Part shown: positions 15,351 to 18,322 of the stretch, in pieces
How the letters are laid out: every line of letters begins with the position of its first letter
How positions within the stretch are numbered: the first letter of the stretch is position 1
Assembly: GCF_014925385.1 (NCBI RefSeq)
Contig: NZ_JACSDK010000003.1
Span: forward strand, 372,001-436,000
Direction of reading: 5' to 3'
DNA: 64,000 bases
Source of the DNA: Pelagibius marinus
Lineage (GTDB): Bacteria > Pseudomonadota > Alphaproteobacteria > Kiloniellales > Kiloniellaceae
Notes under the pieces: generated by a model
Databases searched by the model: none
The model's input: the letters and a program-made list of their open reading frames with translations, nothing else
What the model was told of the DNA's origin: nothing
Translations under genes and position numbers: made by a program

Positions 15351-16778
15351 TCAGCGCTGGGTCAGCTTGAATTCGATGCGGCGGTTGCGGCGGTAGGCGA
15401 TCTCGTCGCCGCCGGGGTCGAGGGGCTGGAACTCGCCGAAGCCGGTGGCGGCGAGACGTTCCGGCGGGATGCCCTGGGCGATGAGGAATTTCACCACCGA
15501 GACGGCGCGCGCCGTCGACAGCTCCCAGTTCGAGGGGAAGGCGGAGGTGCTGATGGGCGCGCGGTCGGTGTGGCCGTCGACGCGCAGCACCCAGTCGAGC
15601 TCGCCGGGGATGGTGGAGGCGATCTCCTTCAGGGTGGCCGCCAGCTGCGCCAGCTGCCGCTGGCCCTCGCCGCCGATGGTGGCCTGGCCGCTGGCGAAGA
15701 GAATCTCCGACTGGAAGACGAAGCGGTCGCCGACGATACGGATGTCCTGGCGGTTGCCCAGCGCCTCGCGCAGGCGCCCGAAGAACTCGGAGCGGTAGCG
15801 CGCCAGCTCCTGCACCTTGCTGGCCAGGGCGACGTTGAGGCGCTTGCCGAGGTCGGCGATCTGCACCTCCTGCTCCTTGTTCTTGGCTTCGGAGATTTCC
15901 AGCGCATCGGCGACCTGGGCGAGCTGTTCGCGCAGCGCCGCCAGCTGGCGGTTCAGCAGCGTCACCTGCAGCTGGGCTTCCTCGGAGAGCTGCTTCTGTT
16001 CGGCGAGTGCGGCGCGCTCCTTTTCCAGGGCTCCTTCGGAGCTTTGCAGCTTCTCCACCAGGTCGTCGCGCAGGGACTTGAGGATCGCCAGCTCGGCGAG
16101 CTGCGCCTCGATCTTTTCCTTGTCGACCTCGATGGTCGAATAGGCGTCTTCCAGCTCTGCCTTGCCGGCGGCGATGGCGGCAAGGGCCTCTTCCAGCTTC
16201 TTCTGCTCGACCTCCAGGCGGGCGAGGGCGGCGTTCAACTCGTCGCGCTTGTCGGCCAGTGCCGTTTCGGCCTGGCTGAGCGCCTGGCGGTTCTGCTGCA
16301 GCTCCGCCCGCGCGGCGGCCAGTTCTTCCTCGCTGCTCGCGGCGACGCTGGCCAGGCGCTCACGCTCGCTCTGCTCTTCGGTCAGCAGCGCCGCCAGACG
16401 GTCGCGCTCGTCGGCCAGGGCCGCGAGCTGGTTGGCCAGGGACTCGCGTTCCTCGGTAAGGGTGGCGAGCTGGCCGGAGAGCGACTCCCGCGAAGCCAGG
16501 GAGCTCTGCAGCTCGGCGGAGAGCTGCTGCACGTTGAGGCGCAACTCGGTATTGGCGCTGCGCTCCAGCGCCAGCAGCTGGGCCAGCTCGTTGATTTCCG
16601 ATTCCAGGCGCGTTAGCGCCTCGTCCTTGCCGGTGATGGCGACCGAGAGGAAGAACTGCGCCACCATGAAGACCATGAGGACGAAGATGACGACCAGCAG
16701 CAGGGTCGCGAGGCCGTCGACGAAGCCCGGCCAGATGTTGATCGAGCGGCGTGAGCCTCCTCTGCCCAGCGCGTACAT
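15351..16778 (-). CDS. MotB-like membrane protein with long coiled coil and OmpA-type peptidoglycan-binding domain
   Basis: A 475-residue inner-membrane protein. A short cytoplasmic N-terminus (RRSINIWPGFVDGLATLL) leads into one helix, VVIFVLMVFMVAQFFL. The W-P-G-F-D signature, with D21 in WPGFVD, is that of MotB/TolR-type proton-channel partners. About 270 residues of heptad-rich coiled coil follow, then an OmpA/MotB domain with the peptidoglycan-binding motif LRVDGHTDRAPI and RRIEFKL at the end. It follows the MotA-like gene on the same strand, so they probably form a proton-driven envelope complex. The ribosome-binding site lies within the stem of a structured element described separately. 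Confidence 0.85.
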   Translation of the reverse strand: MYALGRGGSRRSINIWPGFVDGLATLLLVVIFVLMVFMVAQFFLSVAITGKDEALTRLESEINELAQLLALERSANTELRLNVQQLSAELQSSLASRESLSGQLATLTEERESLANQLAALADERDRLAALLTEEQSERERLASVAASSEEELAAARAELQQNRQALSQAETALADKRDELNAALARLEVEQKKLEEALAAIAAGKAELEDAYSTIEVDKEKIEAQLAELAILKSLRDDLVEKLQSSEGALEKERAALAEQKQLSEEAQLQVTLLNRQLAALREQLAQVADALEISEAKNKEQEVQIADLGKRLNVALASKVQELARYRSEFFGRLREALGNRQDIRIVGDRFVFQSEILFASGQATIGGEGQRQLAQLAATLKEIASTIPGELDWVLRVDGHTDRAPISTSAFPSNWELSTARAVSVVKFLIAQGIPPERLAATGFGEFQPLDPGGDEIAYRRNRRIEFKLTQR

Positions 16779-16779
16779 T

Positions 16780-17045
16780 AGGCCCCACCAACAGGATTAG
16801 GTGCGCCATGAGACGGTCGGGAACGCCCCGTGGCTAGGAGCACCGGTGCAGGCGATGTGGGCCATCGGCAAGCCGGTGCGACGACGTCCACGGGACCTTC
16901 CCGACCGCCCGCAGGGTCGCTTTTCGCTCCGCACCCGCGGCGTTGCCCCGCTTGCCCCATGCACCACATCCTGCTGTGCGTGGCTCCTGTCGGGTGCGGT
17001 CGAAAAGTCGATCTCATGATGCACCTAATCCTGATGGTGGGGCCT
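16780..17045 (-). other. Nested palindromic element folding as a three-way junction between the MotA- and MotB-like genes
   Basis: The outer arms 16780-16813 and 17012-17045 are complementary at 31 of 34 positions. Inside, hairpin A pairs 16814-16823 with 16898-16907 and 16827-16833 with 16888-16894, with an inner CACCGG/CCGGTG pair (16841-16846 with 16873-16878). Hairpin B pairs 16930-16937 with 16991-16998 and continues imperfectly through CGCTTTTCG and CGAAAAGTCG. Outer stem plus two hairpins makes a three-way junction. The GGTGGGG ribosome-binding site of the MotB-like gene is in the outer stem. It could be a mobile palindromic element (MITE-like) or a regulatory RNA. Reading frames across it are not convincing. 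Confidence 0.7.
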
Positions 17046-17048
17046 TAC

Positions 17049-18209
17049 CTAGCCCTCTTCGGCCATGGCCGCCAAGGTGCGGGTCAGCAGGCGGATTTCG
17101 CTGCGCAGTTCCTCGACCGCGGACTCGCGGCCGTGCGCCATCTCCGCCGAGATGCGCTCGAGGCGCAGGTCGAGGTTGCGGATATGCCCCTTGGTGGCCT
17201 TGTCGAGGCCGCCGCCGTCTTCTCTGCCGGAATCGGCCAGGCGCTGCAGCAGGGGCTTCAGGCTGGCCTGGGTCTCGGCGATGGAGAGCATCACCGACTG
17301 CTCGGTGCGCATGTGGTCGGTGAGGCTGCTGAGCCGCTCTGACAGCGCCACCAGGTTCTGGTTCACGCTGGCGCGGTCTTCCTCGCCGCGCGCCACGGTG
17401 CGCTGCAGCTGCTCCAGGCTGTCGGCTGTCTTTTCCAGCAGGGCGTGGACGTAGGCCGAAACCGGCTGCTCGCCTTCGCCGCTGAAGCCGCCGCCGCTGC
17501 TGAGCTTGGTGACGCTGGAGAGCCATTCTTCCAGCTCGTTGAGGAAGCGGTTGTGCGCCTGGGCCGAGTTCAGTTCCAGGAAGCCCAGCACCAGCGAGCC
17601 GGCGAGGCCGAAGAGCGAGGAGCTGAAGGCCGTGCCCATGCCCGACAGCGGCGCCTGCAGGCCGCCTTTCAGTTCCTCGAAGAGGGCGACGGCGTCGCCG
17701 CTGCCGCCCGACAGGCCGCCGATGGTCTCGCCCACGGCGTTGACCGTGTCCAGCAGGCCCCAGAAGGTGCCCAGCAGGCCGAGGAAGATCAGCAGGCCGA
17801 TGACGTAGCGGGAGATCTCGTGCGATTCCTCGATGCGGGCCTGGATGGTGTCCAGCAGCGAGCGCATCGACATGGTCGAGAGGCTGAGCCGCCCGGCCTT
17901 GTCGCCGATCATGGTGACCATGGGGCCCAGCAGGCGCGGCGGCCTGTCCTGCGACAGGGTGCCGGGGAAGACCAGTCCGCCGCGGCTCTCGCGCCGCAGG
18001 GTCTCCAGCCAGTAGATCTCGCCGCGCAGGCCCAGCACCTGGATAAAGCTGTAGGCGATGCCGACGATCAGAATCAGGATAATGAAACCGTTCAGCCAGA
18101 GATTGGCGACGAAGGCGTTCTGCAGCTGCGGGGCGATGAAGGCGCCGGCCACGACGCAGGCCGCCAGAAACGCCACCATTCGGATGAGATAGGTCTGCAG
18201 GAAGGACAT
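17049..18209 (-). CDS. MotA/TolQ/ExbB-type proton-channel protein with long C-terminal tail
   Basis: A 386-residue inner-membrane protein. Helices are visible near residues 9-27, 37-58, 138-160 and 190-210, with the family core GLLGTFWGLLDTVNAVG and the SGMGTAFSSSLFGLAGSL segment near the third and fourth helices. The rest, about 170 residues, is a soluble, partly coiled-coil tail. With the downstream MotB-like protein it should form a proton-driven stator-like complex. The ATG at 18209 gives MSFLQTYLIRMVAF; the frame is open to a TTG at 18251 with no ribosome-binding site. No flagellar genes are nearby, and the pair probably acts on the envelope rather than on motility. Confidence 0.82.
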   Translation of the reverse strand: MSFLQTYLIRMVAFLAACVVAGAFIAPQLQNAFVANLWLNGFIILILIVGIAYSFIQVLGLRGEIYWLETLRRESRGGLVFPGTLSQDRPPRLLGPMVTMIGDKAGRLSLSTMSMRSLLDTIQARIEESHEISRYVIGLLIFLGLLGTFWGLLDTVNAVGETIGGLSGGSGDAVALFEELKGGLQAPLSGMGTAFSSSLFGLAGSLVLGFLELNSAQAHNRFLNELEEWLSSVTKLSSGGGFSGEGEQPVSAYVHALLEKTADSLEQLQRTVARGEEDRASVNQNLVALSERLSSLTDHMRTEQSVMLSIAETQASLKPLLQRLADSGREDGGGLDKATKGHIRNLDLRLERISAEMAHGRESAVEELRSEIRLLTRTLAAMAEEG

Positions 18210-18322
18210 CGTGACGGTCTTACCCTCGGGTCCGCGGGGCGGATGTGTCAATCATAAGGCAGATTCGCCCGCGCCGCGACCCGCGCAGCCGGGAATCCGC
18301 CTTAAGCTCACGTCCCTAAGGG

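Follow-up and report, generated by a model that had tools for sequence, protein, structure and literature searches.

A MITE-like palindromic element between MotA- and MotB-like genes of Pelagibius marinus and the possible bridging of a ribosome-binding site by its folded RNA

In the window analysed here, a stretch of 64,000 nucleotides from Pelagibius marinus, a nested palindrome stands between a gene for a MotA-like protein and a gene for a MotB-like protein, both read leftward. What this palindrome is, and how the gene that follows it in the mRNA is translated, are the questions that the locus raises. A sequence-only reading of the same DNA had offered two answers, a regulator setting the ratio of the two proteins or a mobile palindromic element that had landed in the gap. 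The features that bear on the choice are listed below, from left to right.

15351..16778, minus strand: downstream gene, MotB/OmpA-like peptidoglycan-binding protein (OmpA PF00691; NF006543 above cut-off)
16779..16780, unstranded: TA, presumed target-site duplication, copy beside the start codon (comparison with empty sites)
16780..16813, unstranded: outer arm, the 3' arm in the mRNA (inverted-repeat match)
16781..17045, minus strand: mobile palindromic element, 265 bp between TA dinucleotides, mRNA read leftward
16783..16789, minus strand: GGUGGGG, Shine-Dalgarno (SD)-like string in the 3' outer arm (sequence, fold, anti-SD pairing)
16829..16894, plus strand: two-tier hairpin module (model R1), copy 1 (43.8 bits, E 1.4e-9)
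16931..16995, minus strand: two-tier hairpin module (model R1), copy 2, inverted relative to copy 1 (54.9 bits, E 1.2e-12)
17012..17045, unstranded: outer arm, the 5' arm in the mRNA (inverted-repeat match)
17046..17047, unstranded: TA, presumed target-site duplication, copy beside the MotA-like stop (comparison with empty sites)
17049..18251, minus strand: upstream gene, MotA/ExbB-like protein (PADLOC ZorA1 (MotA/ExbB/TolQ), E 3.3e-15)
17053..17060, minus strand: GAAGAGGG, presumed to be the native Shine-Dalgarno of the MotB-like gene; it lies within the MotA-like gene, at its end

The palindrome, its predicted fold and its hairpin module

The start codon of the MotB-like gene lies at 16776-16778 and the stop codon of the MotA-like gene at 17049-17051, so the palindromic element occupies the entire 270-nt gap, as had been claimed. 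The element measures about 265 bp with 67% G+C; its exact ends were deduced from empty sites and other copies, and they have diverged in the P. marinus copy. Of the two flanking proteins, the MotA-like one has no Pfam family at E <= 0.001 and scores far below cut-off with the NCBIfam ZorA models. For its MotB-like partner, ZorB3 gives a match at E 1.1e-18, but NF006543, the PRK09039 family of peptidoglycan-binding proteins, gives one at E 1.9e-148. No sigma-70-like promoter was found in the element, and Rfam covariance models gave zero matches at E <= 1 across 16700-17150. A terminator search of the element returned one terminator-like match (shuffles give 0.3), which is on the plus strand and therefore does not serve the leftward transcript.

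Inverted-repeat search and RNA folding both bear out the nested palindrome enclosing two long hairpins. The outer arms (16780-16813 and 17012-17045, 34 nt each) are 91% complementary, matching at 31 of 34 positions, and a second inverted pair of 20 nt (16814-16833 and 16888-16907) is 90% complementary. The leftward RNA is strongly structured, with a folding energy of -177.5 kcal/mol against -122.9 +/- 5.5 kcal/mol for 200 dinucleotide shuffles (z = -10.0), none of which folded as well. In the predicted fold, the outer stem closes the two long hairpins and one 3-bp stem, the MotB-like start codon sits at the stem base, and GGTGGGG (reverse strand of 16783-16789) falls in the outer stem, where the sequence-only reading had put it.

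One 65-nt two-tier module makes up both inner hairpins, in inverted orientation to each other. A regular expression gave 41 module candidates, thinned to 23, of which 15 were modelled; six candidates with a different class of loop, among them the element's other hairpin, were left out, as were one shorter hairpin and one more row. Over the 15 copies, 13 of 20 pairs are altered on both sides and 93.3% of cells pair, compared with 29-38% in slid controls of the alignment. The loops AGG...ACG and GATG...CATCGG...AAG are invariant among these copies, which the regular expression itself demanded, so that only the covarying stems count as evidence. Within the window, the model finds the element's two hairpins as strong matches and a third match at E 0.026. 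Among 116 sampled genomes, 40 contain the module at E <= 0.001 (P. marinus included, with 6 copies), as do 30 of 289 genomes of the class at E <= 1e-6. Many copies stand as inverted pairs about 100 nt apart; in seven pairs read closely, CTAG lies about 50 nt outward on both sides in four and on one side in three. According to a crude gene caller, none of 32 module loci (two of them being one site) is inside a gene. Relatives (for example at L324, L327, L338, L196 and L209) also have a far more extensive superfamily of palindromes, which share the hairpin module and have other arms, often with GAGCA... after CTAG or TTAG. Several of these palindromes begin where the adjacent gene ends, at its TAG stop.

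Copies, empty sites and the choice of insertion site

The palindrome is supported as a MITE-like mobile element. Relatives have copies of it at unrelated loci and orthologous sites that lack it, and TA is duplicated at its ends; these findings back the suggestion of mobility made from the sequence alone. P. marinus itself yielded a single copy when the proposed search for others was made: 33 matches were obtained at E <= 10, and below 0.01 these were the locus and its two arms. Across 58 genomes, P. marinus (G000) included, matches at E <= 0.01 occur in 25; they extend over at least half of the element in G000, G001, G003 (as two halves), G004, G005 and G006, and cover shorter stretches beyond these six genomes of the genus. 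The motA-motB junction is filled in G000 and, among the homologous motAB-like loci where a search for copies had been proposed, in G001, G003, G004 and G006. It is empty in three genomes of the genus (G002, G005 and G007). Beyond this junction, G004 has three copies, before secF, murD and chvI, and G005 another three, before pssA, before an ompA/motB-like gene that comes after a cheZ-like gene, and before a gene that follows a cimA-like gene; gene names other than MotA and MotB are readings of translations.

Empty orthologues were found for all seven sites in the genus. The clearest case is the psd-pssA junction: the empty sequence reads GAGGAACGTTAGCATG in G000 and GAGGAGCGCTAGCATG in G003, and the filled one GAGGAACGCTA[G...C]TAGCATG in G005, where the termini TA-G...C-TA amount to a TA duplication. 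Clean duplications flank the pssA, cheZ-linked and secF copies; in G000 the one at motAB is clean as well, with intact TA copies next to end bases of the element that have diverged. The duplication is imperfect at three of the seven sites (murD AA/TA, chvI CA/TA, cimA GA/TG), and the motAB site of G006 has CA/TG instead. Outside this empty-site comparison, which covers the seven genus sites, a diverged copy in another genus (G013) lies between a gene whose stop codon is TAG and an ATG, and copies in another family (G026) have the same outer arm and different inner hairpins. A 17-nt arm searched at no more than 1 mismatch, since chance matches swamped the search at 3 mismatches, gave 25 matches in 7 of 61 genomes of the order (P. 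marinus included); all 25 belong to these elements, and a reversed-pattern control matched in 0 genomes.

Plotted on a tree, presence and absence at motAB call for one gain with at least two losses, or for several gains; the tree was built from up to four gene fragments, with some genomes lacking some, and its root is weak (55). G005 groups with G000 and G004, yet its junction is without the element and without an obvious scar, which would fit either precise loss or an element never gained. In G003, the copy at the motAB site (G003:C61, between 27433 and 27726) is interrupted near the three-way junction: nested in it is a second insertion, about 290 bp long, whose ends are inverted (ACTGCTGTCCGGTTTAG...) and which comes with a duplication of roughly 10 bp.

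Insertions are found close to starts of translation. At 11 of 14 sites (seven in the genus, one in G013 and six in G026, three of the G026 copies ending at contig ends and possibly being halves of fewer copies), a start codon, read by eye, lies within about 24 nt after the element. In the window, a start codon is that near for 12% of non-coding TA and for 1 of 26 non-coding CTAG, and the binomial p is 2e-8 or lower, with one 64-kb window and a home-made gene caller as its null. Paired superfamily elements with other arms, a small control sample, gave 2 of 7. All seven genus sites but one are flanked by genes of the same direction; the exception is the chvI site, where no upstream partner gene was found. 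The element has the same orientation relative to the downstream gene at all seven (p = 0.016), with which G013 agrees; orientations in G026 are mixed (4 and 2). TAG stops were read by eye at 5 of the 14 arm-family sites and, among 27 superfamily loci, at 8, or at 10 if two looser cases are counted, these 27 being the subset carried on from 32 examined. Homing to stop codons as a special property was rejected, because a preference for CTAG explains such sites: 11 of the 26 non-coding CTAG in the window are themselves at stop codons. By the crude gene caller, CTAG is rare in predicted genes, 26 of the 29 in the window being non-coding.

Where the element has settled, its fold has been kept. In an alignment of nine of the 11 genus copies, from which the split G003 copy and a longer G005 copy were left out, 16 of 102 pairs are altered on both sides (15 by RNAalifold's own count) and 96.5% of cells pair, with 0-2 such double-sided pairs in slid controls. 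Two-sided changes of the kind looked for across relatives are present. Four of five covariation measures beat all 500 shuffles and the fifth, further pair types, was reached by 133 of the 500, the structure scored being the consensus of the same alignment. Between the clades {G000, G004} and {G006, G001}, the element at the motAB site is 90.6-93.6% identical, compared with 66.9-72.6% for third codon positions of motA. Differences fall at 10 of 204 paired versus 12 of 62 unpaired positions between G000 and G006, and at 14 of 204 versus 11 of 62 between G000 and G001. The element differs by 7% even between the close pair G006 and G001, no less than between the deep pairs, and this counts against a clock-like constraint. 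Copies at motAB have variants in common that are absent from the other aligned copies, such as GGGAAC in a hairpin stem.

A divided ribosome-binding site and its possible explanations

The element had been thought to hide a ribosome-binding site, and one part of this claim stands: the 3' arm does contain an SD-like string. GGTGGGG is the weaker string, however, and the stronger one, GAAGAGGG (reverse strand of 17053-17060), was left beyond the element, ahead of it in the mRNA; an SD-like string stands at the same place in the empty G002, G005 and G007. In these empty relatives, it lies within the end of motA, 7-10 nt before the MotB-like AUG, and the empty junction of G002 reads GAAGAAGG-CTAGCGC-ATG. 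In G000, the element is found between GAAGAGGG-CTAGGTA and A-ATG, which sets SD and AUG about 266 nt apart along the linear RNA and 8 nt apart if the arms are paired. With the native SD beyond the element and the arm holding only a weaker string, it is more probable that the fold brings SD and AUG together again than that it hides a site.

Other sites point the same way in part. The nucleotides outside the element between SD and start number 5-13 across sites (pssA 11, cheZ-linked 9, G013 11 and, with a caveat, murD 13). Pairing was predicted with assumed anti-SD letters and in windows of unequal length. It is stronger before the element for motB in five of five genomes and for the pssA, cheZ-linked, chvI and G013 genes. 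It is stronger after the element for murD and secF in G004 and for the cimA-linked gene in G005, and bridging is therefore not needed there. At chvI, even the empty G000 has its SD at a long distance from the AUG. In front of murD in G004, the 3' arm reads AGGAGG, a strong Shine-Dalgarno which the predicted fold buries in the outer stem. Predicted SD pairing and predicted fold together give the layout of a split site, with the SD upstream and the AUG downstream of a foldable spacer.

These observations can be joined in one scheme. An element moved by a transposase acting in trans would insert at TA, often within C/T-TA-G, and duplicate the TA; the first base being G in most copies, insertion into a TA-stop codon leaves a TAG stop. 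At motAB, it would have entered the gap of a few nucleotides between the MotA-like stop with its SD and the MotB-like start, parting the SD from the AUG. The outer stem and the inverted pair of two-tier hairpins would let the transcript fold as a closed three-way junction, and if the RNA stays folded out during translation, SD and AUG would be only about 8 nt apart outside the paired arms, near the 7-10 nt of relatives with an empty junction. A MITE-like, TA-inserting element whose folded RNA bridges the native SD and the MotB-like AUG is the reading to which we lean, if only slightly. Palindrome, copies with empty sites, TA duplications, conserved fold and clustering ahead of start codons are all observed; the bridging and the transposase in trans are inferred.

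Other explanations draw on the same data. Possible, though on the unlikely side, is that the element is no more than an ordinary MITE: an insertion without effect that the operon tolerates in a short gap, and whose fold persists only because movement requires it or its arms. The downstream gene would then be translated by re-initiation or from the SD-like string in the 3' arm. Multiple copies, empty sites and TA duplications are what such an insertion would show, and its 3' arm can indeed pair with the anti-SD (-6.0 kcal/mol in G000 and -10.2 kcal/mol for the AGGAGG at murD). Dispensability is suggested too, since absence from G005 and from G002/G007 means at least two losses if there was one gain. 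Against it, the SD of the 3' arm is buried in the outer stem, clustering near start codons is unexpected for random insertion at TA, and the element at motAB is far more conserved than motA third positions, its paired positions most of all. That conservation might instead be only apparent, if a selfish palindrome arrived repeatedly or was corrected by gene conversion or template switching, and selection at the locus played no part. Long inverted repeats can be homogenised arm to arm, and such correction would mimic compensatory changes; the patchy presence on the tree and the 7% difference between G006 and G001 would also fit. We regard this as unlikely, given that the variants confined to motAB copies point to one old insertion and that the hairpin module keeps pairing while its stems change over 15 diverse copies.

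A post-transcriptional regulator of the operon, in which RNase III cuts the stem or the start region is sequestered and the ratio of the two proteins is tuned, seems to us more improbable still. The very stable fold and the start codon at the stem base would suit it, as would the targeting of NEMIS by RNase III and the putative RNase E site of ERIC reported in two papers (PMC2229807; PMC3049150). A regulator dedicated to motAB, as the sequence-only reading had envisaged, finds no support, because the same element stands at secDF, mraY-murD, psd-pssA, chvI and other genes; on account of these unrelated targets, a riboswitch or motAB-specific regulator was rejected. The lack of an Rfam match also speaks against a regulator of the operon.

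Were the favoured reading of bridging by folded RNA true, these junctions would amount to an experiment that nature has replicated: at several sites, ribosomes would start translation across about 265 nt of folded insertion, and relatives would supply the matched empty alleles. One could then test directly how far apart SD and AUG may lie and how much structure a ribosome accommodates. The presence of a mobile element of this size in the operons of murD and secF, genes that are usually essential in bacteria, would also be accounted for. A wider proposal, which we hold to be doubtful, is that of a class of mobile elements acting like 'introns that need no splicing' in the translation-initiation gaps of operon genes, essential ones included: the element would leave an upstream TAG stop, its closed junction would allow the split SD and AUG to be used, and the hairpin pair found across Alphaproteobacteria would be a module for mobility or protein binding.

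Relation to known elements and to bridged initiation sites

Inverted repeats, copies at unrelated sites with empty orthologues in relatives and duplication of TA, by which a MITE is recognised, were all found for this element. A parent transposon with the same arms was absent from 61 genomes of the order (arm at <= 1 mismatch). The search for a transposase partner covered Y1-transposase loci: Y1_Tnp occurs in five of eight genus genomes, the hairpin-loop pattern in none of nine such loci, and inverted repeats in four of the loci were absent or short (17-31 nt). A REP or REPIN linked to a RAYT was set aside on the absence of the pattern from all nine. The bacterial MITEs NEMIS/Correia, ERIC and RUP are likewise small and non-coding, with terminal inverted repeats, TA termini, multiple copies with empty sites and a foldable transcript (PMC2229807; PMC3049150). 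Unlike them, the present element is about 265 bp long with 67% G+C and a nested three-way fold, has a conserved inverted pair of hairpins and clusters before start codons, and no parent IS was found for it.

Other palindromic repeats of Alphaproteobacteria are also comparable. REPs and CGTC-REP dimers often stand as inverted pairs, a few of them in longer palindromes, and no dedicated transposase is known for CGTC REPs (PMC3733652). They measure 20-40 bp, with CGTC stems of 8-9 bp, whereas the element has 65-nt two-tier hairpins within arms of about 50 nt that end at TA; size and structure exclude a CGTC-REP (PMC3733652). In module alignment A3, counted by eye, 7 of the 15 rows have GACG, which is CGTC on the opposite strand, and 8 have AACG. 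The CerM-associated repeats of Caulobacter (CIR) are intergenic as well, but are about 110 bp long with GANTC (PMC2229807); CIR identity is ruled out by 0 GANTC in the 266 bp. Among the titles of open-licence papers listed, none describes this element, and no Rfam model matches its hairpin-module copy; we class the element with the MITE/palindromic-repeat kind.

For the proposed bridging, the nearest parallel lies in phage T4. There, structure between SD and AUG reduces the spacing from 27 to 11 nt in gene 25 and from 22 to 5 nt in gene 38, and destabilising the structure lowers initiation (PMC3014915). As in these genes, a fold would here bring a remote SD to working distance, folded RNA bridging SD and AUG much as is described for gene 25. 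The spacings reported there (PMC3014915) are 22-27 nt in fixed genes, whereas the putative spacer here is a mobile element of about 265 nt placed before several unrelated genes.
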